DNA from: Actinostola sp. cb2023
Lineage: Eukaryota > Cnidaria > Anthozoa > Actiniaria > Actinostolidae
NCBI GenBank assembly: GCA_033675265.1
Contig: JAUJYZ010000990.1
Location: forward strand, 186,001-250,000
Direction of reading: 5' to 3'
DNA: 64,000 nucleotides
The first letter of the stretch is position 1; each line of letters begins with the position of its first letter. Positions 3,190 to 35,800 of this stretch are shown here, piece by piece. The notes under the pieces were generated by a model. The model did not search any database and was not told where the DNA came from. It saw nothing but the letters and a program-made list of their open reading frames with translations. The translations under genes and the position numbers were made by a program.

Positions 3190-3332
3190 GTTGAGCAAAA
3201 TATCGTGATAGGTGATGATTTTCACCATACGCTGTTTTCCTAATGACGAGGGCTGTTTCGTAGTGTGTTTTCGCTTCATCGTATTGTCCCAGTTCATAGA
3301 AAGTACTACCAAGGTTGTTCAGTGTTGTAGCT
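3190..3332 (-). pseudogene. TPR-repeat coding fragment, downstream half, cut by transposon insertion
   Basis: The minus strand encodes classic tetratricopeptide units (TTLNNLGSTFYELGQYDEAK.., YETALVIRKTAYGENH). The frame stops being interpretable below about 3190. Its upstream continuation lies 15.4 kb away at 18757-18880 (..KTAYGESHPLIATT), on the far side of the foldback element. The two halves join in frame if one copy of the 9-bp duplication GTTGTAGCT is removed. TPR proteins are protein-interaction scaffolds and are hugely expanded in cnidarians. This copy is broken. Confidence 0.85.
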
Positions 3333-3533
3333 ACTAATTGGAAGTTGGTTACCGGTTACCGGTTACCGATTCCAAAAATCCAGTTACCGGTTACCGATTT
3401 TTTTATTTTTGTAATTATGTCTGTTGTAGCCTGAATTCTATCGATCAGGATATAAATATATGGTTATTAATGGCATTATTTTTTCCGACTTTCCTCGGAC
3501 GTTTTTGTAACAATACTCGAGAATTTAAGTCAC

Positions 3534-5560
3534 TATAACTTCATCAATATTTATTCAATATTCACAAACCTTTGTCACCCGATGGGTGACTAGGTGTGCC
3601 ACCCATCGCAAGTGCAGGTGTTGCCATCGCAACCTGAATAGCTGAGTAACCTGGCAATCACATGACTAAAACTACCAACTCATAACTATATATAAGTCGT
3701 TATAACTTTATCAATATTTATTCAATATTCACAAAACTTTGTCACCCAATAGGTGAATAGGTGTACCACCCATCGCAAGTGCCCGTGTTGCCATCGCAAC
3801 CTGAATAGCTGAGTAACCTGGCAATCATATGACTAAAACTTTACATAAGTCGTTATAACTTTATCAATATTTATTCAATATTCACAAAACATTGTCACCC
3901 GATAGGTGACTAGGTGTGCCACCCATCGCAAGTGCCGGTGTTGCCATCGCAACCTGAATAGCTGAGTAACCTGGCAATCACATGACTAAAACTACCAACT
4001 CATGACTATATATAAGTCGTTATAACTTTATCAATATTTATTCAATATTCACAAAACTTTGTCACCCGATAGGTGACTAGGTGTGCCACCCATCGCAAGT
4101 GCCCGTGTTGCCATCGCAACCTGAATAGCTGAGTAACCTGGCAATCACATGACTAAAACTTCAAGTCGAACGGCTTTATATAAGTCGTTATAACTTTATC
4201 AATATTTATTCAATATTCACAGAACATTGTCACCCGATAGGTGACTAGGTGTGCCACCCATCGCAAGTGCAGGTGTTGCCATCGCAACCTGAATAGCTGA
4301 GTAACCTGGCAATCACATGACTAAAACTACCAACTCATGACTATATATAAGTCGTTATAACTTTATCAATATTTATTCAATATTCACAAAACTTTGTCAC
4401 CCGATAGGTGACTAGGTGTACCACCCATCGCAAGTGCCCGTGTTGCCATCGCAACCTGAATAGCTGAGTAACCTGGCAATCATATGACTAAAACTTTACA
4501 TAAGTCGTTATAACTTTATCAATATTTATTCAATATTCACAGAACATTGTCACCCGATAGGTGACTAGGTGTGCCACCCATCGCAAGTGCCCGTGTTGCC
4601 ATCGCAACCTGAATAGCTGAGTAACCTGGCAATCATATGACTAAAACTTTACATAAGTCGTTATAACTTTATCAATATTTATTCAATATTCACAAAACAT
4701 TGTCACCCGATAGGTGACTAGGTGTGCCACCCATCGCAAGTGCCGGTGTTGCCATCGCAACCTGAATAGCTGAGTAACCTGGCAATCATATGACTAAAAC
4801 TTTACATAAGTCGTTATAACTTTATCAATGTTTATTCAATATTCACAAAACATTGTCACCCGATAGGTGACTAGGTGTGCCACCCATCGCAAGTGCCGGT
4901 GTTGCCATCGCAACCTGAATAGCTGAGTAACCTGGCAATCACATGACTAAAACTACCAACTCATGACTATATATAAGTCGTTATAACTTTATCAATATTT
5001 ATTCAATATTCACAAAACTTTGTCACCCGATAGGTGACTAGGTGTGCCACCCATCGCAAGTGCCCGTGTTGCCATCGCAACCTGAATAGCTGAGTAACCT
5101 GGCAATCACATGACTAAAACTTCAAGTCGAACGGCTTTATATAAGTCGTTATAACTTTATCAATATTTATTCAATATTCACAGAACATTGTCACCCGATA
5201 GGTGACTAGGTGTGCCACCCATCGCAAGTGCAGGTGTTGCCATCGCAACCTGAATAGCTGAGTAACCTGGCAATCACATGACTAAAACTACCAACTCATG
5301 ACTATATATAAGTCGTTATAACTTTATCAATATTTATTCAATATTCACAAAACTTTGTCACCCGATAGGTGACTAGGTGTACCACCCATCGCAAGTGTAG
5401 GTGTTGCCATCGCAACCTGAATAGCTGAGTAACCTGGCAATCATATGACTAAAACTTTACATAAGTCGTTATAACTTTATCAATATTTATTCAATATTCA
5501 CAGAACATTGTCACCCGATGGGTGACTCGGTTTTCCACCCAATCATTTCACGTTTGTCTG
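3534..5560 (+). repeat. Left-arm tandem array of the foldback transposon
   Basis: There are about 12 copies of a ~153-168-bp unit: GTCGTTATAACTTTATCAAT.., TCACCCGATAGGTGACTAGG.., CCATCGCAAGTG.., GAATAGCTGAGTAACCTGG... Units differ mainly in a spacer of three kinds (TTTACAT, ACCAACTCATGACTATAT, TTCAAGTCGAACGGCTTTAT). Each unit contains small palindromes (TCACCCGATAGGTGA; TTGCCATCGCAA). The order of spacer types repeats along the array, as expected for growth by unequal exchange of multi-unit blocks. Confidence 0.95.
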
Positions 5561-5718
5561 CAGACCCAAACTAGTAACAGTTATTCAATGTTGAAAAAAC
5601 ATTGTCACCCGATAAACAAGTAAAGCAGCAAGCAAGCAACTAATACTGATGTCAAACTTGGCTGCTAGTTATCGAAACCCAAAAAGAGTCGGAAAGCAAA
5701 GAAAATGATTCTAATATC

Positions 5719-6507
5719 CTAGATTTTCTTGACAATTTTCCTTGGATTCTTTGCCTTTCTACGGGACGTCTTTTCACCCGTGTTCTTTTGCTTTAGGTCG
5801 GTGTCTTTGACTATGGTGGTTAGAGAATTGAAATACAGTGAGTGTCCGTCCTGGGTTCCAAATATGTTTAACACGGCTGTATTATAAGATACATCTTCCT
5901 CCTTCATAGCATATTGGATCAGCAATTCCGGAAGGAGAACCGAGGAAATCATTTCACCCTTTGATCTTATTCCATGCATATTCTTGAATTCATATTCTCT
6001 AGTGCATACTCCGAAAAGACCGCGCTCTTTTACGGGAATCGTGATGACGAACTGCTGTAACAAATTATTATGTAGCAAGAAGATCTTACTCTTGAAATAT
6101 CGCTCCATAGCAATATTCTCCGCGATCATTATTTCCCTGAATTCTGACCGTGAAAGAACCACTGATGCTTGTAGTCTTTCGTTGTCAGAAACATCTGGAA
6201 TGGATTGAAGGTGTGGCATTTGGTTTTTGACGAACTCCTCGATTTCTGGGTCAATACGCTCAAGGTCGTCATCTGTATCTAAATCGCTATCTTCTCTCAC
6301 GGGACTTGTGTCTGAATCTATAAGATTAATTAAAATCCACATTATTGGAATAGTGAGACATTTGCAATATGTGTTCCTCTCCTACATGTTGAAAACCAGT
6401 GATTGATCATGGATTATGTTACCTTTTGTTGCGATGTCTTCCTTTTCGATACAACTACGATTGCCTTCTCCGCCTTTCTCTTCTTCCATTTCACTATCAT
6501 CTGATCC
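5719..6507 (-). CDS. C-terminal exons of the foldback-element gene, unknown domain
   Basis: Two exons are visible: about 6424-6507 (acidic, SDDSEMEEEKGGEGN) and about 5719-6326 after an acceptor at TTATAG|ATTCAGACAC. The latter begins acidic (DSDLDTDDDLERIDPEIEEF), has a ~130-residue globular middle, and ends in a basic tail (SRRKAKNPRKIVKKI) that could be a nuclear signal. It lies downstream of the Ulp1 exons on the same strand, so it is most simply the end of the same gene. A separate short gene cannot be excluded. No family is recognised. Confidence 0.5.
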
Positions 6508-7154
6508 TAAAATGATTGTATTAACAAGATCCGTCATTTGAAACAGCCGAGTCTAGTGTCTGTCGTTCAGGTGCTGCAATGTTTGCATTATTGCGAAATG
6601 CAAAATATACTAATTTACTTCATTTTAAAACTACCTCTTTTAAGGGAATTGATGATTTTCGGCCCGTTGAATGTACAATTTTCTTTCCTGAAAAAGCGTA
6701 AAATCTTTAGTTTAGCAATGTTACCAATAATAATAAACTGTTTTAATCAGTCTAGGAATTGCTAAAATCAGGAGTTCTGAAAGCCCATTTTATTTACTTA
6801 CAAGAGTTGGCTTTCAATAAGTTCATAAGCCATTTGTTTCCGTAGCAACTTTACATCGGCCTAAAATGAAGATCATTTAATCTATTAAAGGTAAAAATGA
6901 AACTTTATCTGCGTCAAATATTTTAATACACTGATTGATTTTCTGGTGGTTTCAGTGTTAAGTAACAAGTCAAGAACACAAAAAAGGGGGAGAAGCTCAC
7001 CTCCTTGAATTGCATGCCATCTCCTCTAAGAATGCATAAAACATACTGCAAGTGTAATTAAACATGTACAAAATGAAAGACCAGTCCATGTAGATAGCAT
7101 TCACTAGATATTCAGTTGAACATTATTCAGTCCAACTGTGAAGGTAGCACTCAC

Positions 7155-7907
7155 CAGACAAATGAATACGCCACAATCATTACTGTTTGTTTGCATAGGG
7201 AGATTGAAGCCATCCTGTAAATATATATTAGTTATAAAAACTTAGAACAGTAGTACTAGTAGTTGACGGTTTTATTGCAAGACTCACTTGTGATACTTGT
7301 ATATCCCACGTTTCGCAACTGGCTTCTCGCATCAAAGAATCTAACAGAGCCCTGTCGTTTACAAAATAATTACCCAGAGAGAGTAAGAAGCTGCTAGATA
7401 CATTGACGCAATTATGTGGCCTTAGTAGCATGGCCACGTTAATATGAAATGAACATATAACGACTGCCTTACTTTGCCACACGAATCGATTCCAAACCTC
7501 TAGCTGCGACACCAATTGGATCAAAGTACAATAATTGTTTGTCGCTCTTATTGACAATCTAAAAGATAAAATAATTAATTAATCATGGCAAATTAAAGAG
7601 GCTTGCACTACTGTGTTATTACTCACCAGTAAGCACCAATGAATGTTGTTTTCATTGACCGGTATGAAAATGAAATCTTTCTGGTTCAGTTTGTCCTGTA
7701 ATCATATGCACAGAGAAGATCGTTTACATGGATGGTTATAACAACCGTTAGGAATTGCTAATTACAAGAAATACCTTTATCAATTGTCTGGTTATCCGTT
7801 TTCGTGTCGACTGGGAATTGGCAGTTATGAAGGACTGAAACTTGTCGCTATGAAGCATTCCCACTGTGTGTGATCCCTGGAAGTCATGAAATATGGAGTT
7901 CACATAC
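7155..7907 (-). CDS. Ulp1/SENP-type (C48) cysteine protease module of the foldback element
   Basis: Five phase-compatible exons were found on the minus strand: about 7775-7907, 7627-7695, 7473-7558, 7288-7351 and 7155-7214. The catalytic set of a SUMO/Ub-like protease is complete: His in FIPVNENNIHWCLL (7627-7695), Asp in LLYFDPIG (7473-7558), and the oxyanion Gln plus nucleophile Cys in PMQTNSNDCGVFICL (7155-7214). Every exon has GT/AG ends and the phases add up (23 codons; 28 codons plus 2 nt; 22 codons after joining; 20 codons). Ulp1 proteases remove SUMO-like modifiers and are known passengers in plant MULEs. Here the module follows a USP module on the same strand. It is probably nuclear. 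Catalytic residues appear intact, which points to purifying selection until recently. Confidence 0.85.
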
Positions 7908-8051
7908 TTGAAATAATAGATGTTTGTTTTGGTGTTTTTTTTTTTTTGTGTACGCAAATCTGCAGTGCAAAGTACTAATGTTGAGTCAACACGTGCTTAT
8001 AAATGCCAGTGGTTTCTAGTTTCCTAGGATGCCAGTGTGTAGTTTCCCCCT

Positions 8052-8497
8052 TTAAAGTGCCTATGAAATGAAAATGTCGATCCTTGTTAACGCGTTTTAT
8101 TGTACATTACTGTTGTTTGGTCTTTCTCTGAACATTTGCTGTATTTAAACATCGACTTTGAGCATGCGAACATTTTATTTTCGCGGTTCGAAAATTATCA
8201 TTTTCAACCAAAATGTGCGACAGGAGACTGGGCTCTTGACAATGGCTCGGTGATGTTAAGAGGTTTGCATGCCTTTGTTTGCACAACTCTTGACGTCACA
8301 TTTCTATAGTTTGACCGAGCGGGAATTGTCGCACTTTGAAACCCAAAATGTCCAACTTCGTGCGCGAAATAAAAAATGTTCCCGTAGCTCAATTCACTAC
8401 TTGTTATTAATGTCATGTAAACAAGCAAATAGTAAACTTCGTCGTAGTAGCAAATAAAAACGGGGTCTGTTTTTTCATTTCATAGGCACTTTAAGGT
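8052..8497. mobile_element. MITE-like inverted-repeat element in an intron
   Basis: CTTTAAAGTGCCTATGAAAT at the left end is mirrored by ATTTCATAGGCACTTTAAGG at the right end, about 445 bp apart. It lies between the USP and Ulp1 exons of the foldback gene. It is non-coding; the short ORFs across it have no support. Confidence 0.75.
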
Positions 8498-8782
8498 TTT
8501 GCAGTTGCAGACTGTTTTGTTTTCTGTTTATTATGTTATTACGTCATCAACATACCTCTTGAATACCATAGGCCTCTATAATGAGTTGTATATATCTATT
8601 AATAGCCTGCAAGATACATATAAAGAAGCGTACTCGTATATTAAATGCCTTTAGGATTAAAATACTGAACTTTGTTCCTTATATAGGTAAACAGGTTTTA
8701 TGGCGCGGAATTGTATCGGGAAAACGTTACGTAAATTATTTGAATTTGTTGTCGATGGTAATGTATCTTCATGAAAACATAC

Positions 8783-11238
8783 AAATGACGTGAGCTTTCC
8801 ATCTCCTTCGTCTCCAGTGCACCTTCGAATGTCTTCTAGAGACAAGTGTTTGATCAAGGCGCCATCCTTTCCGATAAGGTTCGTTTCCTTGGGTTGCTTA
8901 CTCGATGCCACACATGTTATCTGATAAAATAAAGCAATTATCCGTGATATGTTGAAAGAAATAACTATAACAATCAATAATTTGAAATAAGATTGCCAAC
9001 CTTATTTTTTTCAAGTTCAGTGAGATGGTAGAGAGGTAACGATCGCTGATAAATAGATAAACATTAAACATAAGATGTTTGTGAAGATTAAGTTCCACAA
9101 CTGACACTTTAATCAATCATGTACAGGAATACAAATACTGGTTTCTACTGTAAATTATTGTAATTCACCCCATATACCTCATTATCACCGTGGGTTTCGG
9201 CTTTGTTTCGTAACTCCATTTCGTCTGTAACTTTAGTTTCAAGATGATAGAACAGCACATAAAGGTTTTCCTTTTGTAAAATGGAGTAAAAAGGGACGGA
9301 ATATGTTAAAACTAAAAATCAATGTAGGATTGATAACGTACGCGTAAACAACATGCATGGTAAATCTGTATACCTGTACAAACGTGGAACTAATGACGTC
9401 TGGATGGCAAACCATCACCTTTGTGTCATTGCACTGTAGCACCGTCCCATCTTGTACTATAAAAGCCAAATCTACGAAATGTGGATATCATAAGTGTATT
9501 TGTGTCTCCTTAGAAATCGCTACATGTTACATTTTCACAAGTGTGCAATGTTTTTGAACCGCAAAATTAAGTTTTAAAAGTACTTACAGTGTCCTGACTG
9601 GGGGGATTCACCGAGGTGCACCTGTCATGATAACATAATAAATTAAAGTTACAAAATCAAATGGAAAGAAAGAATGAAAGAAAGAATGAGAAAGAAGGAA
9701 AGGAAGGAAAATAAAAGCACAAACAAACGAAACAGAAAGGAAACAGGCAAGGGTTTTTCCGAATATGAGAAAAAGACACTTACAACCAATGCTGTCAGCT
9801 TAAAGTGAGGCCCAGCAGTTGCCAAATTCGGATGCAATAATGGTTTAGTTGCAGAAACGTCTAGGTACCTGTAAAATATATACGAAAGCCGCAAGTTACT
9901 TTAATTTGTTCGTGCGCAAGCCATGTTATAACATCAGTATATGGACAGGTGGTCATTTGCTAGAAATTAAAACTAACTTAAACAACAATCGGTAAGAAAT
10001 TAATTAATTTATTAAACTAATGGACCTTTCAGGTAATACTGCGAGTTTATTCTTCTTTGAACTCCCATTCAACCAACGGAATCTTCCAACGGAGAGAACA
10101 AGTACATTCGGCGGGAGCAAAGACATTTTCCTTTCCACGCGGTGTGTTTTTTCACTCATGCAGGTAGACGAGGGGCAAAATCTGTGTAACGCAAAAATAT
10201 CTCCATGGGTATAATATACATACAGTGAATGCCAGGTTGTATATATGTGTTTTGCTTCGTTGGGAATTTTATGACATAATTTGATGCGTCTTTGATGCAC
10301 AATCCGATTAACCCACGTGCAAGTTCCATATCCGGGCATACTTACGAAGAGAAGCTACCATTAAAGGCCGAGGAAAGAATTTCTGTCAGTGCAACGTTTT
10401 TAGATGTCTCGCCATCACAGGGTAGTGGAACTGGATAGACGGAAAAATATTCTTTGCTCTTGACCTCCTGTTAAATTAAAGTAATATGGTAGTAATAGCG
10501 TCTTCTTTACAGTATAAGAGCACAGCTAGCACACGAATTTGTAAAGAGCACTAAAACATCATCTCACTTTGGCACAGGAAGTACAAATACTTGACACATT
10601 AAGTTGTCCTCGAATGAAATCCAGCGGTTCACCCCAAACCTGTAGAGAGACAAGATCAGTGCGTTTTGAAAAGCTTGTGTTTATCTTTAGCATCGATGTT
10701 TTATAATGTCTTTATGAAATAACTTACTGGATGGCAGAAGTGTTCTGCAAGTTTGATGAGGCATTCGCTAGCATCTTGCTGTTGTAAAGCAGATAAACGG
10801 AGGATCTTTGTCACTGCTAACTGCATGAATAATAATAAAACATAATAAACCGTCATTCAATGTTCACATTAGTGATACCCTCAATCAATTATGCATGCTT
10901 GTATGTCAGTACTTACTGCCACATATTTATTATTCATTGGTCTGCTGCTTCCCGATTTCAAGGAAGAAACTGCTGCGCAAATGCTCTTTTGGCAGTCATC
11001 CATGTTCTTCTTGTCATTTTCACTTAAATCTGAAAATAAATGACCTTTTTAGTCACCCTATACAACTATTATATTAAAAATTAATATTTTTATTGTTGAC
11101 CTTGTGATCATAAAGGAGATACTTACTGTGGCAAAAGTTTTCAAAGGGTGTGTTTAAGAGGCACTGCAGAAGAGCATTCAGCCAGCATGTACTCTTATTA
11201 TAGTTGGCTAACCCACGAACAACATTGTAGCGAGGACG
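8783..11238 (-). CDS. Ubiquitin-specific protease (USP, C19) module of the foldback element
   Basis: Minus-strand exons with GT/AG ends and continuous phase: 11127-11238, 10917-11029, 10728-10820, 10568-10639, 10346-10467, 9784-9868, 9588-9621 and about 9374-9456, then probably about 9178-9230 and 8783-8920. The Cys box is GLANYNKSTCWLNALLQCLL. The family's QQDA motif is QQQDASECLIKL. A CxxC knuckle follows (SSICTSCAK). The His box is KLTALV|VHLGESPQSGH, split by an intron, then a C-N-D-T-K-V strand. This order matches the USP fold, which cleaves ubiquitin conjugates. The usual Tyr after SGH is Leu here if the splice is right. The first exon joins the transposase ORF at a perfect phase-0 junction, so it may be part of a transposase polyprotein. 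No frame damage was seen in the core exons. Confidence 0.85.
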
Positions 11239-11330
11239 CTAAAAAAAAAAAAATGACTACTAGTCATGCAACACAGTCGCAAAAACAGACGTTACTGATA
11301 TCATCAAAGCTTTACAGGCCCATTACCTAC

Positions 11331-13584
11331 CTCTGGGACAGAGAATATTTCTTGTGATGTGTGATTTTGAGCTTTTTCAGTGGAATTTTTCGTTTGTCGA
11401 AACTTTTTCCCTGCTTCTCTTTTCTTTTCAATGTCGTGTAAACAGTCCGGAAATGGTTTCACTGGGGATTGTTGAAAGCGGCCGAGTTTTGGAAATTTGG
11501 TGTTTTTTGATTTTTGCATCCTCTTGTTCCACTTCTCCTCGACAGGCTTTGGCTTTCTCTTTGCGGGTGGTGGGGAAGGTTTGTGCATTTTTACTTTCTT
11601 CGTCGGTGGTGACGGTTCGTTAAGGCAATTCCGCAAGCGAGATACTTGTGCTTTTGTCGGGCATTTCGAGTTCTGTACAACTCCCTTGTAAAATAGCCGC
11701 TGTCTTCCCAAAGTCATCTGGAGGCGTTTTTTGACATATAGATGGATGGGTATCTTTTTTTCTCCGTTGAAATCCTCTTCCTTCAGAGCCTTTATAGAAT
11801 TTTCCATCTTGCCACTGGTAAGTCTAGTAGGAGCCTCTTTAGAACTTCCAGGAAAAAAGAATGGAATCAGGATTCCGCTCCATAACGGAGCGGTGGGAAG
11901 GTAGTCATGAAGTAAGATTTCACAGAGAGCAGGGTTAAAGAAATAATTTCTTTTGCATGTTGGTTCTTCGCAATTGCTCTCAATGCTCTGCCATATCTTG
12001 CGAAAGTGGTGGGCAAATGGCGAAGAGGGAGAGCTGCGCAGTGCTTTTTCCTCGCTATTCTCTTCAAATGGCGTTGCATCACTTGATTCTTCCTCTATTT
12101 CTTCTACATTTGGTAATTTTGAAGGCAAATCTTCGTCTTGTTTGGGACCATCTAAGGCGTCGATGCCGACTTTAATTTTTCTGTATGCTACGTCAACATC
12201 GTTGTGCATATGTTTGCTGCCAAGAACGGTTAGTAGTGATTTGACAGAATCCGTTAGCTCAGATAAAGAAGATGAGTTTACACAAACAGCAAGAGCATGC
12301 ATAATGAAGGGAATCGCCTTATTTTGTGTGACGTGCTTTTTTACGCGAATGTACAGTCTATGCATTAAATGACTAGTACAAACATGGACAGCTGCCTTTG
12401 TGAGGTCATTATGAGAGGCATTTTTGTTTGTTACACGCCAAGCTCTTTCGAGGAAGTCCGCCAGAGATTCACCATTTAACTCTTTCAGTGCAGCAATGAT
12501 AAAAACAAGGCTGAAATCACTTTCCATGATCGTTGGCGAGGAGACGTTCTTGTGACCAAATATTCGAGCTTCGCAATGGCGGAACCTTGATATAAAGTAC
12601 TGCAGTGAAGACATCGTATGGTCATCAGAAATCATCTCAGCAACCATGATAGGGGGCTGTCCATTAGTAGGATGATCTACAACTAGAAAGTAATTAAGGA
12701 TCCTTTTATCTTTCGCAGGGTTTTTTCTAATGAGAGAACCTGTAGCATCCCAAAATGTGCGTTGAGTACCACAAAGATCGTGCCAAAGACGAATGGCTGC
12801 CTCGTTCCAAAGTAGTACCCTTAATGGTTCCAAATGTACTTCTTGGATGAAGCCAAACAACCTACGTTTTTCAAAATGACTCCTAGATATATTTACTGCT
12901 TCATCGATGTCATTTTTGCACATCTCATCAGAAAGTTTCATAAGTTGTGACCCCACATCTGCAATAGAACTACTATGGCTTCCAGATGGATTTCTTGCCT
13001 CAGTGCGTATTTTTCTTAACGCTGCGATTGACCCAAATCCATCTTGATTGCCAGCAAGAAATGCGGTCGGTGACTGGGTGTTTAATTTCTGATGAAAAAA
13101 GGTTGACGGTTTCACGTTAATCAGTTGCGTCTTGATCTCTTCACGCTTCTCTTTCGATAGTTGTCTTGTTATGACAGAGTCGAGAGGATGTTGGGAAATA
13201 CCTTCGTAACAAACAGAGAACTCACGATCTCGATGTTTTCCATTTTGAATCGTGATATTCGCTTGTACCCCACACTTACAACAAGCTTTCCCTAAAAAGT
13301 AAGGACCATTCCTCTTTTCGGGGTTAGCTTTTATACTTGAAACGGAATGAGCAACTTTGATTTGAAGATTTAAGTTTCTGCGACAGTAGCTCGGTCCAGT
13401 TTCCAGTAAATGCAAACCCTCCAGATCTTCTTGGTCCTGGTCTAATTTTCTGCCACTCTTCCTCTGTAAGGCGAAAAACGGCGTTTTGAAGTGGCGTTTC
13501 AACAACACCGTTATGGGGAACATCGGCTCTTGCGAGTGTAGACAATGTTGTTCTGGAAAGTCCACCAGTATTCGTCTTCATTGG
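11331..13584 (-). CDS. DDE-type transposase of the foldback element (likely one frameshift)
   Basis: A long exon, about 740 codons. The acceptor near 13585 opens a frame (PMKTNTGGLSRTT.., FRLTEEEWQKIRP) that matches the phase of the previous exon but meets a stop at about 13322. The coding signal then continues one frame over (GPYFLGKACCKCGVQ, a CxxC finger), so a single-base frameshift near 13320-13335 is likely. The first ~80 residues of the long open frame are therefore probably not real. Transposase features are FWDATGSL (first Asp), MESDFSLVFIIAALKEL (second Asp) and CTSHLMHRLYIRV (a C-x2-H motif as in MULE transposases), followed by an acidic linker and a basic Pro-rich tail. The 3' end is a consensus donor (CCAGAG|GTAGGT, 11331) leading in phase to the USP exon. 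The family is MULE/NOF-like by context. Confidence 0.75.
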
Positions 13585-13689
13585 CTGAAAAGGACGTCCA
13601 AATAAAGAAATTAACGAAACAATTTTTCTGGAAATTATTCAGTAACAAAATAATATAATTATAATCATATTTTTACTTATAAAAGGTAC

Positions 13690-15514
13690 CTTAGACTCGT
13701 GTAATTCTGTACCCTCTACTGAATAATCATCACAAATGTCTACTTCAGAATCGTACTGTTCTTTTTCGTCTCTTGTCATTTCGTCCGAAGACTCCGCATC
13801 ACTTTCCAGTGGATTTCTTATCTTTCTGGACGGTTTTGAAATAACCTCATCGCTATGACAACTACTAGCACTGTCATCTTCTGAAGAAGTGTGGTGGTTG
13901 CTCTTTTCCTTTTTATGGTAATAACAGAAGTACGATAAACAGAGGACCACTGGTTTGTCAGTTGATCTGTTAAGTCGGTCACCCTCTAAACATTTTTAGA
14001 AAGCGCGAATCTTAACGAGGGCTGAAATTGGCTTTTACATTAAGGTACCAGGGGACCTTTGTGACCACTGTTCACTGAAAGCCGCGTAGCGCTCTAACCA
14101 CTCATCCAACATGTATAAAAGTATACATTTTCTTAAAGCTGAATAATTGCAGATTCTAAATATGCTTGAGATTATTTCCTATTTTGTAAAAACAATTTTG
14201 TTAATGCACATTTTAGAAAATTCGACCGGCCTTGTTCAAAGAGAATTGTGCACGCGGGAATTCAATCGATTTCTAAACGGAAAGTGCCATTGTAATGAGC
14301 ACACTTTGTTCTTAAAAATCATGTCTCCGATTTTTGATACGTTGCCTCGTTTAAAATTTATTTGATGATTTATGTGTTAATCGCTTAAAAACACGTTAAT
14401 GAATCTTGACAGCAAATATCTCCTCAACAAAAGCGTTTACCGAAATTACAATGGCACTTCCCCTTTAAAAATCGATTGAATTCCCGCGTGCACAATTCTC
14501 TTTGAACAAGGCCGGTCGAATTTTCTAAAATGTGCAATAACAAAAAAAAATACAAAATAGGAAATAATCTCCAGATTATTTAGAATCTGCATTTGTTCAG
14601 CTTTAAGAAAATGTATACTTTTATACATGTTGGACGAGTGGTTAGCGCGCTACGCGACTTTCAGTGAACAGTGGTCACGAAGGTCCCCTGGTACCTTAAC
14701 ACATGCATAGAGAAATCCCCATGGGTCTGACTAATTTCGAGCTCTTTTCATCTGAAAATAAGTTCTTACAATCAGATTGGTCGGATTTAATTTTTGGAAA
14801 TACATACCTCACATGCGGATGTCGTTTGCTGACCATCATCGCATTCAACTTCCAGATCGGAACCATTCCTTAAATGAATGATAAAATGAATGAAGGATTG
14901 ATCGGGCTAGTGAATAATATAGATGAATGAATAATAACAAAAGCTTACCCATCGTCTTTCTTTCTGCTTTCACATCTCAATTTCTGAAATCCATCAGTCT
15001 TACCACGACAGGCATCGTAGTCTGAAGGTGTAAATCTCTTGGGTTTCTTCAAAATGAAATGAAATACAAAATATAAATAAATGTAAAATTTGATATCTGC
15101 TGCGGCGGACTGAACAACAAACCTTAATGTTTCGACTTCCTGTTTTCACTATAGGAGTAGTGAAAGTAGTACTCTTCTGAAATCCAGACAATATTGTTAC
15201 TCAAAACATATAACTGGCTTTTATTAGTAAATAAATGACAGTTCTATACATTACCAATCTCGCCTTACCGATCTAAACTTTTCCTGTATGCCCTCCTTGT
15301 TCCTTCGCCAAAAATCGTTCAACGCCTTCACCTCATTTATGGAAACTATTTGCTTTGAAAAATAACTCCTTGCAACACGATTCCAGTACCCATCAATGCT
15401 AGACAAAGACTGTCCGGGCTGAGTTGGACTACCATCTTCACGTTTTAAAACGCTCAAATAGTGATTGCAAATAATGTTGTATGTATTCCTTTTCTGCAAG
15501 TGATGAACATACAT
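13690..15514 (-). CDS. N-terminal exons of the foldback-element gene
   Basis: Small exons upstream of the transposase, minus strand: about 15270-15514 (contains DGYWNRVARSYFSKQI and NDFWRRNKEGIQEKFRS, an SANT/Myb-like aromatic spacing), about 15127-15180, about 14950-15049 (KPKRFTPSDYDACRG..), a short one near 14812-14870, and about 13690-13930 (Ser/Asp/Glu-rich, ending HESK at a donor). Phases fit the transposase exon. The start is uncertain: ATG at 15514, or an acceptor a few codons later. The acidic Ser-rich stretch may be a linker. A DNA-binding N-terminus would be usual for a transposase but is not proven. Confidence 0.5.
14040..14699. mobile_element. Hairpin MITE, near-palindromic ~650 bp, flanked by TTAA
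   Basis: Two arms of about 320 bp are reverse complements: TTAAGGTACCAGGGGACC at left and its mirror at right, including GCGCTCTAACCACTC and ATGTATAAAAGTATACATTT. TTAA lies at both ends, as for piggyBac-type insertion, although it also extends the palindrome. It sits in an intron of the foldback-element gene. Non-coding. Confidence 0.85.
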
Positions 15515-15542
15515 ACATCACGAACATTGCACTCCAAAACTG

Positions 15543-15568
15543 AGGGGGGGGGGGGGGGGGGGGGGGGG
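15543..15568. repeat. Poly-G tract
   Basis: A run of about 26 G. Length may be an assembly artefact. Confidence 0.8.
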
Positions 15569-15997
15569 TACATGCTTGTAAAATGGGGGCCATGCTTTGC
15601 ATCTTTTAGATAATAATAATAATAAATAATAATGGTTGTTCAATAGATAAAACGAATGACTTCATTATTTACTAATAAAGCTATCCATCTATCTATCTTC
15701 ATTGAATCTATTGTTTTAGAAAAGAGATCTAATTCAATTGATTGTCAATTGATACCAATTTACTAACTGATTATCAATCGGTATATCAGCAATTGATAAC
15801 AATTGATACTCACTCAGATTTTTCCCGTTATCAATTGTTATCAATTTCTCCCAATGAAAATTACGATCCTTGTCAGAATTACAGACCCTATTCAAGAAAA
15901 TTTAGGGTGAAATGTATACCCTATCTAAGACCAAAGCCAAAAACCATACCCTATCCAGCGGCGCATACCCGTATAGCAAATATTGGGAGTACCCGTC

Positions 15998-16045
15998 CCC
16001 CCCCCCCCCCCGGGGGGGGGGGGGGGGGGGGGGGAGGGGGAGTGG
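15998..16045. repeat. Poly-C followed by poly-G
   Basis: A C-run passes directly into a G-run, forming a homopolymer hairpin. A plus-strand frame through it (poly-P/poly-G) is an artefact. Confidence 0.8.
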
Positions 16046-16704
16046 GTAAAAGGCCACATTCATAAGCTCAGTAGCTTGAGTTGCATATTATGGTACTATG
16101 CTAAGACTATTGATCACGAAAAATAGTGCATACAGTTTTTAAAACATGTATCAATAACAAAATATGAAACTGACCTTGTATCGAACCATTTCCAGTCATT
16201 ACTAATTGCACGGCGTTATTGATATACCCAGCATATCGCGTCAGTTGTAAATGTTCAGTTGTAAATGTTCAGTAAGGCATGGCTACATGTATATATAGTG
16301 CTTCAGTTTCCGTTTACGTCAATACATGTAATGTAACTATCTATAATATTTGGAAATCACCATCTATCTAGAATATTGTGTAAGATTTATTATATTTCTT
16401 ATCTAGTATGACTACGTAATAGCCACATTCCAACTCTGTCGCAACTTCCGTCGCACACATAGAAATTTATAATGCACTCAAATTGGTTTTGAGTGACCAA
16501 GTCAATTGTTGACTAGCACTTAGTGTGGATGGTAAATTTCGATCGCTACTACAAAAACATGCAATGGACAAAGGAATGCCCTTACATATATTTATTTCAT
16601 TCGTCAATGATTTTTTGTTCGACTGATTAGTGTCCACATTTTAAAATGTATGTATGTCATCACTGATTGTACACATACGACTGGCAGGACGTGAGATAGG
16701 TTCT

Positions 16705-17475
16705 ACAACCAGATTGATTCTGGCAGCAGATTCGCCAGCAGCAGATTCGACCAGCAGCAGATTGGTAGCAGCAGATTCGGATTGACGTCATTTTGACGTC
16801 ACAGATTTCAGAATCTGCTGCTGGCTTGACAGCAGATTCACTGAGCAGGGGTAGGGAAGGGAAGAGCGACAACAAGACAAAAACGCCAGCTCAAACCTTT
16901 TAACCTTTCGATACTGGAGACTCCAAACATAAACAACATAAACAGTGTGGAAGGAGCCTAATAAGTAATTCTAATACGAATTTTAAAACTTGACATCACG
17001 TGTTATGTTTGATTGTCTTTCTTTGAGCATTGATAATTGACATACATTTATTGTGTAATCACACATCCGGTGTTGCGTTACTAGTTGTCTAAGGTCATTC
17101 AAATGCAACCAGGTTTGCTTTCATATGGTTAGCTCAGTTGTCATGTACAAGTTGAATACAGCTATTAGGAAGCCCATCCACATCACATTGAGTTACTTTA
17201 TATATTGTGGCTATTTTGCCTCCGAGGCACTAGTTTGTAATGTTTATCACCCGTTTCCAACGCTGAATCTATTCTTAGCGTTCGTTTGCAGTGCAAACTG
17301 TTAAACAATCATATTCCCTTCCCTACCCCTGCTCAGTGAATCTGCTGTCAAGCCAGCAGCAGATTCTGAAATCTGTGACGTCAAAATGACGTCAATCCCA
17401 ATCTGCTGCTGCCAATCTGCTGCTAGTCGAATCTGCTGCTGGCGAATCTGCTGCCAGAATCAATCTGGTGTTCTA
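16705..17475. mobile_element. Inverted-repeat element rich in CAGCAGATT motifs
   Basis: Arms at about 16705-16862 and 17313-17475 are reverse complements: ACCAGATTGATTCTGGCAGC.., GACGTCATTTTGACGTC.., CTGAGCAGGGGTAGGGAAGG. The arms contain a short tandem GCAGCAGATTCG repeat and a double CRE-like TGACGTCA core. The 450-bp middle shows no gene. Confidence 0.8.
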
Positions 17476-17479
17476 CACC

Positions 17480-17560
17480 AGATTCTACACCTAAAAGTGT
17501 ATTTCTCAGATTCTACACCTAAAAGTGTATTTCTCAGATTCTACACCTAAAAGTGTATGA
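17480..17560 (+). repeat. Short tandem repeat
   Basis: About three copies of AGATTCTACACCTAAAAGTG plus TATTTCTC, abutting the CAGCAGATT element. Confidence 0.85.
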
Positions 17561-17770
17561 TTGTTATCTCGGTGTTCTAGAAAGCCGATGGACGTAAATT
17601 ATTACGCAAAAGAAGGACATAGATTTCTTTAAATTTAAAATTCCTTTATTGTTTGATGCTTGGAACTTTTCATAAGCATACATAAACGAGCTCTTTTGAC
17701 TCAAACTCCAACTGAAATCAGTCACAATTGATTTGTTAAATTCCCCTTTACATCGTTACCGCTACATTTG

Positions 17771-18490
17771 ATGGGTGGCACACCTAGTCACCTATCGGGT
17801 GACAAAGTTCTGTGAATATTGAATAAATATTGATAAAGTTATAACGACTTATATAAAGTTTTAGTCATATGATTGCCAGGTTACTCAGCTATTCAGGTTG
17901 CGATGGCAACACCTACACTTGCGATGGGTGGTACACCTAGTCACCTATCGGGTGACAAAGTTTTGTGAATATTGAATAAATATTGATAAAGTTATAACGA
18001 CTTATATATAGTCATGAGTTGGTAGTTTTAGTCATGTGATTGCCAGGTTACTCAGCTATTCAGGTTGCGATGGCAACACCTGCACTTGCGATGGGTGGCA
18101 CACCTAGTCACCTATCGGGTGACAATGTTCTGTGAATATTGAATAAATATTGATAAAGTTATAACGACTTATATAAAGTTTTACTCATATGATTGCCAGG
18201 CTACTCAGCTATTCAGGTTGCGATGGCAACATCGGCACTTGCGATGGGTGGCACACCTAGTCACCTATCGGGTGACAAAGTTTTGTGAATATTGAATAAA
18301 TATTGATAAAGTTATAACGACTTATATAAAGCCGTTCAGCTTGAAGTTTTAGTCATGTGATTGCCAGGTTACTCAGCTATTCAGGTTGCGATGGCAACAC
18401 CGATACTTGCGATGGGTGGTACACCTAGTCACCCATCGGGTGACAAAGTTTTGTGAATATTGAATAAATATTGATAAAGTTATAGTGACT
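17771..18490 (-). repeat. Right-arm tandem array of the foldback transposon (inverted)
   Basis: It contains four to five inverted copies of the left-arm unit (GATTGCCAGGTTACTCAGCT.. and TCACCTATCGGGTGACAAAG.. repeated), with the same three spacer variants. It is much shorter than the left arm. The inversion makes the element capable of forming a large stem-loop. Confidence 0.95.
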
Positions 18491-18756
18491 TAAACTCTCG
18501 AGTGTTGTTACAAAAACGTCCGAGGAAAGTCGGAAAAAATAATTTCATTAATAACCATATATTTATATCCTGATCGATTATATTTTAGTCAATTTGCTTG
18601 TTACTGTATACATGTAATATACACATAGCAATGCATGAGCTTTTAAAATAGAATTCAGGCTACAACAGACATAATTACAAAAATAAAAAAATCGGTAACC
18701 TGTAACTGGATTTTTGGAATCGGTAACCGGTAACCGGTAACCAACTTCCAATTAGT

Positions 18757-18880
18757 GTTGTAGCTATCAATGGATGACTTTCACCATACGCTGTTTTACA
18801 AATGACGAGGGCTGTTTCGTAGATGCCTTCGGCATCGGCAAATAATTAATCTGCTCGCCACTGACAAAATCACGATATTT
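18757..18880 (-). pseudogene. TPR-repeat coding fragment, upstream half
   Basis: The minus-strand reading includes IYETALVICKTAYGESHPL and runs into the 9-bp duplication at 18757-18765. It resumes at 3332-3190 on the other side of the transposon. The right-hand side degenerates beyond about 18880, so the locus may have been a TPR fragment before the insertion. Confidence 0.8.
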
Positions 18881-22877: not shown

Positions 22878-24360
22878 CTAGAGATGCTGGCCAATGCTCT
22901 CAAAGTAGAGAAAACCCAGATACTCAAAACCACTATTTATACTTTCCCGTGTTCTTGTAGAGTCCGGAAAATTACTTCCGTCGTTGCTCAAAGACAAACA
23001 TCTACAGTACGTTCTATGTTCTGCTAGCAGTTTTGAACGTTGAAACTTACCTTTCGTTTTTATTACAAAATTATTACCATCTAGGAACCATCCTTTCATT
23101 TGATGTGCATTTTCTCTTGTGTGTTGTTTAAGAGCCGAAATAGCTTGTAACGTTCCATACATTCAGGGAAATGCCAAAGGCCTCACATGTTAAAGAGGAA
23201 TCCTCATCACAAGACCAGAGAGGAATGACAAGCTAAGTTTGAAGATAACCCACCTGTCCCAGGTTTGCTTGGACAAGTAGCACGGTGAGAACAGCTCACT
23301 TTGCGAGTTCCCTTCTTGTAGCAAACTAGGCATCGCTTTTAAACTTTCCTCCAGTAGGGGGAGTCTGTGTCACAAAGCTGTGAGTATGATGATGTTTTCC
23401 TCTCTTGAAATATCAATTTGACCTTCAAAAACGTAGCCATTGGCGGCGTCCGCAGCCATCCAGACTTTGATTCTATATTTTGTTGGCTTTGGCGACATAT
23501 ATTGCCGGAAAGCAAGTGCTCCTTTAAATGATATCATCCCTTCATCAATTGAGATATGTTTAGAAGGCTTGTATACTTCTTTGATGTGTTGTAAACATCA
23601 TTCATTCATTCATTCATTCATTCATTCATTCATTCATTCATTCATTCATTCATTCATTCATTCATTCATTCATTCATTCATTCATTCATTCATTCATTCA
23701 TTCATTCATTCATTCATTCATTCATTCATTCATTCATTCATTCATTCATTCATTCATTCATTCATTCATTCATTCATTCATTCATTCATTCATTCATTCA
23801 TTCATTCATTCATTCATTCATTCATTCATTCATTCATTCATTCATTCATTCATCATTCATTCATTCATTCATTCATTCATTCATTCATTCATTCATTCAT
23901 TCATTCATTCATTCATTCATTCATTCATTCATTCATTCATTCATTCATTCATTCATTCATTCATTCATTCATTCATTCATTCATTCATTCATTCATTCAT
24001 TCATTCATTCATTCATTCATTCATTCATTCATTCATTCATTCATTCATTCATTCATTCATTCATTCATTCATTCATTCATTCATTCATTCATTCATTCAT
24101 TCATTCATTCATTCATTCATTCATTCATTCATTCATTCATTCATAAAACGCTGTTTGGGGTAGGACACACTTTGTACAAGCGATCGAAGTTTGCTTCACC
24201 ATGCTGTGGTTCGGTTATCAAGTTTCTGAAATGCAAATACTGTGACAGTTCTTCGAACCTATTCTTTGTCATGGCTGATTGTATTCCCGCATTTCTTCTT
24301 CTTTAATAGCATTTGGGTCAACACCAAACGGCATCATGAACCAGGACATGAAGATGCTCT
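22878..24360 (-). pseudogene. piggyBac-type transposase relic split by a microsatellite
   Basis: Read on the minus strand. 24170-24300 gives AMTKNRFEELSQYLHFRNL and DRLYKVCPTPNS, the conserved piggyBac block before the first catalytic Asp region. Then comes the ATTC microsatellite. 23590-23410 resumes with SKHISIDEGMISFKGALAFR and QYMSPKPTKYRIKVWMAAD, the classic SIDEGM..FKGR..QYMPKKP..G.K.W block. Beyond a stop near 23400, degraded homology may continue to 22878. piggyBac transposases use a DDD catalytic core and TTAA sites. Stops and the microsatellite make this copy dead. Confidence 0.8.
23599..24145. repeat. (ATTC)n microsatellite, ~545 bp
   Basis: About 136 near-perfect ATTC tetramers with one phase slip near 23851 (CATCATT). 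It translates as an uninterrupted Phe-Ile-His-Ser repeat on the plus strand, which is an artefact. It lies within a piggyBac relic. Confidence 0.98.
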
Positions 24361-32824: not shown

Positions 32825-35800
32825 ATGCCAAGAAAAAGAAGACGTGTTTTACTATGGCAAAGAGATGAAATAACAAGTTGTCGATGCTCGCTTTTGAAAT
32901 ACGAACACACTCATTGTCCTTGTCCAGAATGCGATGGCGCAGCCGTATCTCGATCAACCGAGTACAATCACTGGAAATTACGAAATAGTTTGGGAGAAGA
33001 AGCATTTGCGAATGTGGATGACGATGGCGATTCCGATCCCGACTCTCGGTAAGTAGGAACAAAGCAACACACAAACCCATAAAGGCCATGAAAACCCAAA
33101 AATCGAAAGGAAAATGAACACACATATGAAAGTGGTCATTTAATAAAGATCGTAAATATAAATGTTCCATCTATTGATGTACACAAAATGTGAGTTTTGA
33201 ACAGCGTATTATAATAATAAAAGTTCAATACGGAGTGCACAAATGTCGCGAGAAAATTGCACCGATTTACCGGAAGTGATTTTTCAGCACCCAAAATGTC
33301 ATTTTTTTGCATCATTCCACTTTGAAATCGAAAAGAAAAACCGATATTCGTCTTCTTAAGTCGTATTTTTGAGTTTACAAGGCCTTTTAATATGCTCCCG
33401 GATTAACTATTTTCTGAATGTTTATATTGTCCAGCTAAAAAGATATTAACACTACAATAAATGTCAGATGTCTCATAATATATTCGTTTTGCAAGCATGG
33501 AATTTTAATTTCAAAAGCAAACAATACCCGTTTTCACATGCAGAGGTGATTTATGCTTTTGAAATTAAAATTCCATGCATGCAAAACGAATATAGAATGA
33601 GATACCTGACATTTACTGTTAGTAGTGCTGCTAAGAACCAAAATTGTTCGTTTTATGATAAAAGCATGAAACTTTGCAGAGTTGCTAACCTTTATAGGAC
33701 AAACAATTATTGATATGGAACCAGCTTAAATTCGCACTCTGATCCACGTAATGCGCATGTCAAAAATGGCACATTTGGCTTCTGCATGGAAACGAGGCTG
33801 AGGTCGAATAAAGGATTTTTTCCTGTAAAATAATGACTGTAATGTCGTATTATTGCATGTTATGATTATAGTAGCTACTACAATGCTCTTGACAAGTTTT
33901 AAGTGGATCACATGATTGGTCACGTGACAATTTATTATATTACTCCAAGGAAGTGATACACTATGTAGTTCAGTCATTCTATGGTTTTCATTTTACAAAC
34001 TTATTGTGATGGAAAGTCGTTTCTTTATTATCATCATTCAACTGAGGAGGGTCTAAAAGGCCCCTAATTTCAGTTTGGTGGAATGTGATGAAAACTGAGA
34101 TGAACGATTTTAAGATTTTACCACAGGGATCCCGCATCGAATACTGTAAACGAAGTTTATTTCAGTTTTATAATTCGGTTGAGTTTGCTTGAGTTTCTGG
34201 ACGTTTTAGCTTGTTATGGCCAAAATAGCATACAATATGTTATCAGTTAAAGCTATTGCCTGTTTCAAGATTCTCCGATAGCCACTGGCTCTGTCAAAGC
34301 TCAGCCTTATTGACAAAAAAACATATGTACAACAAATCAATCAATTGTCCCTCATATTGAGACAATTGACTCGTTCTACTGAGCAGGATCTAATTACAAT
34401 ATCCACCACAGTTACATAAACCTGTACAATCGAAGTTGGCTTTCACACATTTACACCTTCCCTTGCATCCTTTCTTGCAGCCACAGTGGATCAATTCATA
34501 GCATGAATCTTTGGCCTGTGGAAGGGTTGTCCACATCGGCTTCCAATAATTCCCGGCTTCTTTTTTCCATCCCCATGTAGATGGAGATGGTAGGGTAGGT
34601 TGCTTTAGAAAGACTTGACCCCATATGCTAGCCTGCGTAGCGGCGTACGGGAAAAGGGAAGGAGGGAGGGGAAGGGGGGAAGGGGAGGAGAGGAGAGGGG
34701 ATTGGGGAGAGGGGATTGGGGAGAGAGCGGAAGGGAACGCCTGCAATGATAACCCCACATTCCTCGTATTTTACGTTCAAATTTTGAACGTAAAATACTC
34801 ATTGGTTAATCAGCTGTCAATCAAATGCCTCTATTGTTTCAAATGAAAATTGATCTCCATCGTTTGAAACGACGGTCTAAACACTGGCGTTCGATAATGA
34901 TTCTGATCAGATAGATTCTGAGATGGCCGTATCGTTATAAAACAGAACAAAACTCGTTATAAACTCCTTGTTATAAGGAAAAGGTCGCAAAGCCTAATTT
35001 TTAGAGTACTCGCTGAAGTGAAAGGAGAAGCGGTTTTTCTAGTACAACACGAAGCCGATTGAGGTCAAGTTCTTGGGAATCAGTCTTGTACTACACGAGT
35101 CGCCGCCAAAATTGATCTTCGCTAGTGCTGAAGAAGTAGACTGATTCCATTTAAGCGGCTGCATGTTTTCGCTCTTTTACCCTGGAGGTCGCTGAGAATC
35201 GACAAAGAGCGAACAGACCGACTTATGGAATCAGTCTACTGAAGAAGTAACAGACAAGGGGTTTCAGCAAGTCAGGCTAAAATACCACAACTGTGCTTTG
35301 AACAAGAAGCTCGAGTACCCTGGTTCCAGAGGCTTTGTTAAGCTCTATAATACGATGTCGAACAAGTTAGGGTAAAGCTCGAGCTAATCGTAATGTAGAA
35401 AGCTTATTAAATTAACTCGTAATGTTGACAGTTGATTCTCTAGATATCTGGCCTTCTCTTCTCTTCTCGATTTATATACTGGAATATAGTCTCTAATAAA
35501 AACTTCCACGGTAATTTAACTTTCTGGGAATCTAAGGGTTAAAAGGAAGGATTCAGTTGAATGTGGGTTTCTACGGACCGAAGTTCAAAGGTTTTTTGAA
35601 GACGGCGATTCGATCAGGAGTTCGTTCAGAAACGTCCGCAATCGTATAAATATGTTGACAGTTGAGTTGTATGATTCTGTAGATAACTGTCTCTAATAAA
35701 AACTTCCTTTCATTTAAGTGCTATGTTTATTCAGTTTGTGTAGCCTTTTATAAATACCATAGATCGTAAAAAAGTAAAAAGACGATTTTGATTGGTTTAT

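Follow-up and report, generated by a model that had tools for sequence, protein, structure and literature searches.

A foldback-type DNA transposon in Actinostola whose predicted gene joins a transposase-like part to USP-type and Ulp1-type proteases

Can a single transposon gene encode a transposase together with two proteases, one of the USP type and one of the Ulp1 type? The question is raised by a 64-kb window of the 424-Mb genome assembly of Actinostola sp. cb2023, a sea anemone and not a coral (G000:C1019:186001-250000), in which a 15.4-kb foldback-type DNA transposon spans positions 3333-18756. Here, the window is this whole stretch of DNA, and coordinates refer to it unless another contig is named. 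On its minus strand, the element has one predicted gene, with a transposase-like part ahead of a USP-type protease and then an Ulp1-type protease, an architecture that we read from the sequence with high confidence. The initial annotation had proposed such a gene, and the proposal is upheld by a spliced model, by a second full-length copy of the element, and by divergent relatives in which the parts share open frames.

The gene is modelled as a minus-strand chain of 29 exons that runs from 15,493 to a stop codon at 5,719, with GT-AG borders at 28 of 28 introns and a median intron length of 105 nt. The chain begins with five small predicted N-terminal exons (N1-N5, 13690-15493), of which N2-N4 agree with a public protein, P0006 (QZH41_006021 of Actinostola sp. 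cb2023), followed by a large transposase-like exon (11331-13584) with a putative DNA-binding part containing C and H residues and a candidate D-D-CxxH-E motif. Ten predicted exons (U1-U10, 9178-11238) encode the USP part (peptidase C19, UCH), which includes the catalytic Cys and His. A predicted linker exon (L1, 9001-9045) separates them from ten further predicted exons (C1-C10, 6635-8920) for the Ulp1/SENP part (peptidase C48), with its catalytic His, Asp, Gln, and Cys. Two predicted C-terminal exons without a confident domain (D1 and D2, 5719-6506) extend to the stop codon.

The chain is open for 1478 aa from a frame break in the transposase-like exon to the stop, and domain scores were taken on the chain that starts after this break. 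Residues 677-971 match the Pfam family UCH (PF00443) with an E-value of 7.3e-26 (profile positions 2-254 of 254), and residues 1097-1232 match Peptidase_C48 (PF02902) with an E-value of 2.5e-21 and 76.9 bits (profile positions 69-216 of 217); both matches pass the cut-off. With these scores on the spliced model, the minus-strand USP and Ulp1 boxes named in the initial annotation are not chance resemblances. By sequence, the closest PDB relative of the USP part is USP15 (1.2e-9), with the catalytic Cys and His aligned, and that of the Ulp1 part is SENP1 (8.5e-16), with His, Asp, Gln, and Cys aligned. The USP part also has a candidate Asp/Asn, and its CxxC and CxxxxC pairs lie at the usual place of the zinc ribbon in USPs. 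The two parts would act as deubiquitinating and deSUMOylating enzymes. Members of the C48 family can also cut NEDD8 or ubiquitin.

The joining of these parts in the window copy depends on 28 predicted introns. The one between the transposase-like exon and the USP part measures 92 nt, near the median. In exon U1, no ATG precedes the catalytic Cys, and the TAG of the acceptor closes the frame just before the exon; U1 therefore needs an upstream splice partner. The mean score of the predicted donors is 2.93, compared to 1.24 for 490 other GT dinucleotides of the region, and that of the acceptors is 9.32, compared to 5.93 for 565 other AG dinucleotides; these means were never reached in random samples (0/20,000). 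This scoring is partly circular, because the exons were picked by eye with the splice sites in view, and the argument is therefore carried by the domain matches and by the relatives with shared open frames.

A search of the same genome with the transposase-like part gave at least 15 matches at no fewer than 10 places on 9 contigs. At five of the ten places found (C1019, C1183, C1507, C890, and C137), both proteases lie behind it on the same strand. The divergent relatives are 28-31% identical to the window family in the transposase and 23-25% in the proteases. On C1507 (L028:4080-7802, plus strand), one frame of 1241 aa contains the transposase (29%), an HMG-box-like stretch, the USP (UCH, 5.6e-32), and the start of the Ulp1 part, the remainder of which is in an overlapping frame. 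On C890 (L029), UCH (3.8e-17) and C48 (6.7e-9) occur in a single frame of 628 aa. Since the parts share open frames in C1507 and C890, the fusion rests on more than splice prediction. Between the window copy and these two relatives, the catalytic Cys and His of the USP and the His, Asp, Gln, and Cys of the Ulp1 part are kept, and an Asp is aligned near the third catalytic position of the USP. This conservation at 23-25% identity is the best indication in the sequences that both proteases may have mattered over time. From the first compared base onward, C1507 and C890 agree to 99.5% for at least 8.9 kb and may represent two haplotypes of one locus; we count them as two places, which perhaps represent one event. 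A script search detected no inverted repeats on either side of the C1507/C890 gene.

The remaining places are less complete. The transposase of C137 (31% identity) has stops in the aligned stretch and is followed, in the same order, by a USP Cys box and an Ulp1 DCG box, these modules being visible as motifs and short matches only. The match on C646 is cut off before the USP, and one on C1053, at 863 kb, runs into the contig end; those on C324 and C581 are fragments, and neither contig is among the results of the protease search, in which 75 of 80 candidates were scored. At 763 kb of C1053 (L032:1146-2087 and L032:8231-9031, minus strand), a transposase relative of 40% identity is followed on its own strand, at a distance of about 5 kb, by two OTU stretches (OTU, 1.3e-27); the transposase may be of the same lineage, here combined with a different deubiquitinase. 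Among the side observations, the stretch between transposase and USP in C1507 (residues 705-752) resembles HMG_WDHD1 (2.9e-4, below the cut-off), and the next frame has an Ig-like stretch (0.008, also below the cut-off) after the Ulp1 part. Other results of the protease search were Ulp1-like stretches elsewhere in the genome, with about 21-37% identity.

The element itself is confirmed. Both termini start with ACTAATTGGAAGTTGG, and exact copies of the target-site duplication GTTGTAGCT flank it at 3324-3332 and 18757-18765, as the initial annotation had noticed. A duplication of 11 bp, possible at the window's own site, was ruled out because the second copy fits exactly only with 9 bp. The terminal inverted repeats lie at 3333-3439 (plus) and 18650-18756 (minus); their outer 107 nt differ by one base, beyond which the right end has a 71-nt stretch that is absent from the left end. 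The inverted arms of tandem units described earlier are also present: a left subterminal array of 153/167-bp units (3526-5541, plus, about 12.5 copies) and a right array of the same units in inverted orientation (17770-18497, minus, about 4-4.6 copies), with 94-99% complementarity between the arms in the longest pairs among those listed. Allowing up to 3 mismatches, GGTTACCGGTTACCGGTTACC occurs 6 times in the window, each time at one of the two ends of the element, and never in 100 shuffles. When the flanks are joined with one copy of the duplication, an 80-aa open frame crosses the junction and matches TPR_12 (4e-20). Because this frame is restored, we conclude that the element interrupts a TPR-repeat coding sequence, the parts of which lie on the minus strand at 3214-3332 and 18766-18845.

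A second full-length copy (copy 2) was found at C1183:197,994-211,826, with the same ends and its own 9-bp duplication, CAAAGGGAA. It is 98.2% identical to the window copy over an 11.2-kb block and contains all exons of the model. The initial annotation had named full-length copies lacking either protease as one observation that would speak against its fused gene, and neither of the two full-length copies is of that kind. Ends of the window type were read at 8 places, with a 9-bp flank match at C1019, C1183, and C83. The flanks do not match exactly at C267, C675, and two places on C257, and the latter two are poorly judged because the matches stop short of the true ends; the elements on these three contigs are shorter, with interior pieces kept. 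A candidate for a third full-length copy, C329:436572-454673, was rejected, as its 18.1 kb between the ends have no transposase, USP, or Ulp1 match; this locus (L033, L034) has an 8-bp flank match and may be a composite or filled-up element. The copies and their duplications show that the element has transposed in the past, whichever protein carried this out.

To which known group does the transposase-like part belong? Its relatives in public protein sets (P0001-P0005) are 56-61% identical to it over 362-657 positions. Numbered on window:11331-13325, residues D193, D270, C316, and H319 are kept in 6 of 6 alignment rows, and E508 in all 5 rows that reach this position; similar D-D-CxxH-E-type motifs were seen by eye in C1507, C137, and C1053. 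These residues would be the catalytic ones of a functional transposase. A CxxH motif is associated with the hAT, MULE, P, Kolobok, and Rehavkus transposases. Neither the window part nor P0001-P0005 has a Pfam match to MULE or any other transposase at E-values up to 10. No integrase match was found in Pfam either, and the Gypsy-integrase-like core of Ginger was thus not encountered. Searches of viral contigs gave no relatives, for either the transposase-like part or the end sequence, and searches of prokaryote genome contigs and of phages gave none.

Regarding structure, the element has the 9-11 bp duplication of Mutator (MULE) elements, as an exact 9 bp at three of the eight places, including both full-length copies. 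It also has the long inverted arms of tandem repeats of Foldback-type elements, and the subterminal minisatellites with 9-bp duplication of Rehavkus, the arrays being present here at both ends; the PHD finger of the Rehavkus transposase did not appear in Pfam scans of the transposase-like part. The 9-bp duplications and long composite repeats are compatible with Mutator, Foldback, and Rehavkus. Of the Foldback/MULE-like label given to the element in the initial annotation, the foldback arms and the 9-bp duplication stand; the Pfam scans do not bear out a MULE transposase. We do not file the element as a MULE, because it has neither a Pfam transposase match nor a PHD finger and its candidate residues are putatively catalytic.

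What could such a gene do for the transposon? Animals use SUMO and ubiquitin for transposon silencing and for protein turnover. In the reading that we favor, the element is a foldback transposon making one protein, the proteases of which would strip ubiquitin and SUMO either from the transposase or, at the sites bound by the transposase part, from silencing proteins of the host; we give it somewhat less than an even chance. The single predicted gene would yield one protein composed of the transposase-like part, the USP, and the Ulp1 protease. Through its transposase part, this protein would bind the arrays of 153/167-bp units, excise the element, and reinsert it with a 9-bp duplication. The tethered USP and Ulp1 parts may keep the transposase from degradation and may remove those SUMO or ubiquitin marks through which the element attracts silencing factors. 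Taken by itself, this mechanism, in which tethered proteases protect the transposase and strip silencing marks, is a tentative proposal that we consider slightly less probable than the reading as a whole.

Several observations weigh against this reading. The anti-silencing role is drawn by analogy, with the Ulp1 of Arabidopsis Vandal MULEs (PMC13317346) and with active VTD deubiquitinases of transposons (PMC9741609). At about 13,333, in the transposase-like exon, two tblastn matches to P0001 meet in different frames, so the window copy, as assembled, would not yield an intact protein. The donors predicted after U6 (GTCCAT) and after L1 (GTTGGC) are weak. Copy 2 is damaged: several exons have indels, and the transposase part is interrupted by stops. 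The two full-length copies differ at 20 of 5324 aligned bases in exons and 20 of 4438 in introns (p = 0.63), with 7 synonymous and 12 other codon changes; since exons and introns diverge alike, the pair gives no signal of selection. P0006 goes directly from N4 to U3, leaving out the transposase exon together with the one that encodes the catalytic Cys of the USP. For the transposase part, searches of Pfam, NCBIfam, and PDB gave no significant relative, its RNase H-like match (RT_RNaseH_2, 0.16) is at chance level, and an AlphaFold model made from 6 sequences was too poor to be used (mean pLDDT 33.6). At a Pfam threshold of 0.01, C48 is called in neither of the C1507 (L028) frames; the Ulp1 part there was recognized because it is 99.1% identical to that of C890 (L029) over the aligned part. 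The linkage of the three parts, which the initial annotation proposed to check in other copies, holds at five of the ten places found, and fails on C1053 at 763 kb, where neither a USP nor an Ulp1 match occurs in the 9.9 kb read. Finally, pieces of USP occur on C400 and C998, contigs without a transposase match; those at C400:520600-521800 (L055) are degenerate exons, 57-77% identical to those of the window, with stops.

Other explanations of the same gene have to be considered. The proteases might process a polyprotein, with the Ulp1 part, the USP part, or both separating transposase, USP, and Ulp1 after translation, as adenovirus-type proteases do with viral proteins. The long single chain of the relatives would suit this, as would the weak resemblance of the Ulp1 part to Peptidase_C5, the adenovirus endoprotease (21.0 and 21.5 bits, with a cut-off of 21.3). 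However, the fit to C48 is far better, Pfam gave no ubiquitin-like fold in the chains scanned, and USP enzymes normally need a folded ubiquitin; we regard processing as unlikely. Alternatively, splicing could yield separate transposase and protease proteins, the fusion being merely one isoform. In an earlier model of 22 exons, 16 end in phase 0, so exon skipping would often keep the frame, and P0006 is a model of that kind, from N4 to U3. In P0006, however, aa 47-183 and 185-455 match window exons exactly; we dropped it as an independent relative and read it as an annotation of copy 2. It carries both PF00443 and PF02902, and it looks like a gene-caller product because it lacks the catalytic-Cys exon and the window has no match for its aa 1-46 and 456-521; the annotation is probably an artefact and conceals the element. 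As the C1507 relative also needs no splicing to join transposase and USP, alternative isoforms seem to us rather improbable.

The proteases could also be of no use to the element, as passengers captured from the host. They are encoded in about 20 small, host-like exons, compared to one large exon for the transposase part, and silent changes are not in excess when the two full-length copies are compared; MULEs are described as capturing genes (PMC13317346). Against this stand the order of the modules, unchanged in C1507/C890 and C137 with identities down to 23-31%, and in C1507/C890 also the retained catalytic residues and shared open frames, and we find the passenger explanation quite improbable. 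Still further from our preference is the view that the element happens to enclose two host genes, USP and Ulp1, which are independent of it. The omission of the transposase exon from P0006 would fit such an arrangement; copy 2 has both proteases at another locus between the same ends, and relatives have transposase with USP, or USP with Ulp1, in single frames, which leaves this explanation very little room.

If the favored reading of one three-part protein is set beside known systems, each of its two protease classes (C19 and Ulp1) is already known from transposons, as are OTU and VTD proteases; the comparisons below refer to the available passages of the papers cited. Among Arabidopsis Vandal MULEs (KIU/Kaonashi), Ulp1 is part of the anti-silencing VANC gene and not of the transposase (PMC13317346). 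Ulp1-carrying MULEs also occur in melon, rice, and grapevine, and such Mutators in hydra and lancelet; MULE groups often have duplications of 9 bp (PMC13317346, PMC2836005, PMC6446971). Like the window element, these are DNA transposons with a captured C48 protease; in those passages, Ulp1 is mentioned without a USP, and the window transposase differs in having no Pfam MULE match. Ginger1 of Hydra is closer in some respects, being a cnidarian element in which the transposase has a C-terminal protease of the ubiquitin/SUMO type, Ulp1 or OTU depending on the family (PMC2836005). It has, however, a Gypsy-type integrase core, terminal inverted repeats of 44-270 bp, and one protease type per element in the table of that paper, whereas the window element combines another type of core with foldback arms and with a pair of proteases from different classes.

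Rehavkus elements share the 9-bp duplication, long terminal inverted repeats, and a minisatellite, near one end; they are described from arthropods and annelids with a PHD finger (PMC6446971), which has no match here, a comparison made by description and not by sequence. Foldback/Tm1-type elements share composite inverted repeats of tandem units and 9-bp duplications, although their units are of about 14 bp, compared to 153/167 bp here, and the word protease is absent from the main text of PMC3169594. Two classes of ubiquitin protease can occur in one transposon protein, as in Helentrons; these are rolling-circle RepHel elements, and their pair, VTD and OTU, differs from USP and Ulp1 (PMC9741609). 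For transposon VTD deubiquitinases, activity has been demonstrated (PMC9741609). A USP-class domain joined to a transposase is known from a Trichomonas vaginalis protein with Transposase_11 and peptidase C19 domains, for which the passages seen mention no Ulp1 (PMC2836005), and Utopia/NeSL retrotransposons carry Ulp1 (PMC4640811). In agreement with the initial annotation, which knew of no such pair, our search of the available open-access literature turned up no transposon that has both USP and Ulp1, a search that left most subscription papers and Repbase outside; the pair on one transposase chain appears to be new.

We tentatively propose, as a possibility we rate below even, that these elements represent a previously unrecognised superfamily of animal DNA transposons with a three-part protein of transposase, deubiquitinase, and deSUMOylase (with OTU instead in one lineage), kept over deep divergence as a counter to silencing by ubiquitin and SUMO. 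A transposase physically linked to a deubiquitinase and to a SUMO-type protease, and conserved in divergent families, would offer a direct molecular example of how a transposon counters host control, with two separable enzymes for testing. It also suggests that a shared need lies behind the repeated capture of ubiquitin/SUMO proteases (Ulp1, OTU, VTD, and C19) by unrelated transposons.

Two smaller structures lie inside the element. A TTAA-flanked, hairpin-like element with inverted ends of about 150 nt occupies 14040-14699, within the intron between N4 and N5, and this intron is of about equal length in copy 2. A second hairpin, at 16708-17469, has 156-nt inverted arms that are 98% complementary and adjoins 28-bp tandem repeats (17479-17562).

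Elsewhere in the window, an open frame near the left end (752-1468, minus) has an alpha-kinase domain (PF02816, 5.7e-34), and two long minus-strand frames of 1144 and 903 aa (35748-39182 and 59195-61906) have no Pfam match at 0.01. A 473-aa frame at 44282-45703 (plus) resembles the final part of a reverse transcriptase (RVT_1, 5e-4, below the cut-off) and is perhaps a LINE remnant. A (TCAT)n array at 23598-24144, with about 137 copies and 99% matches, is open in all three plus frames.

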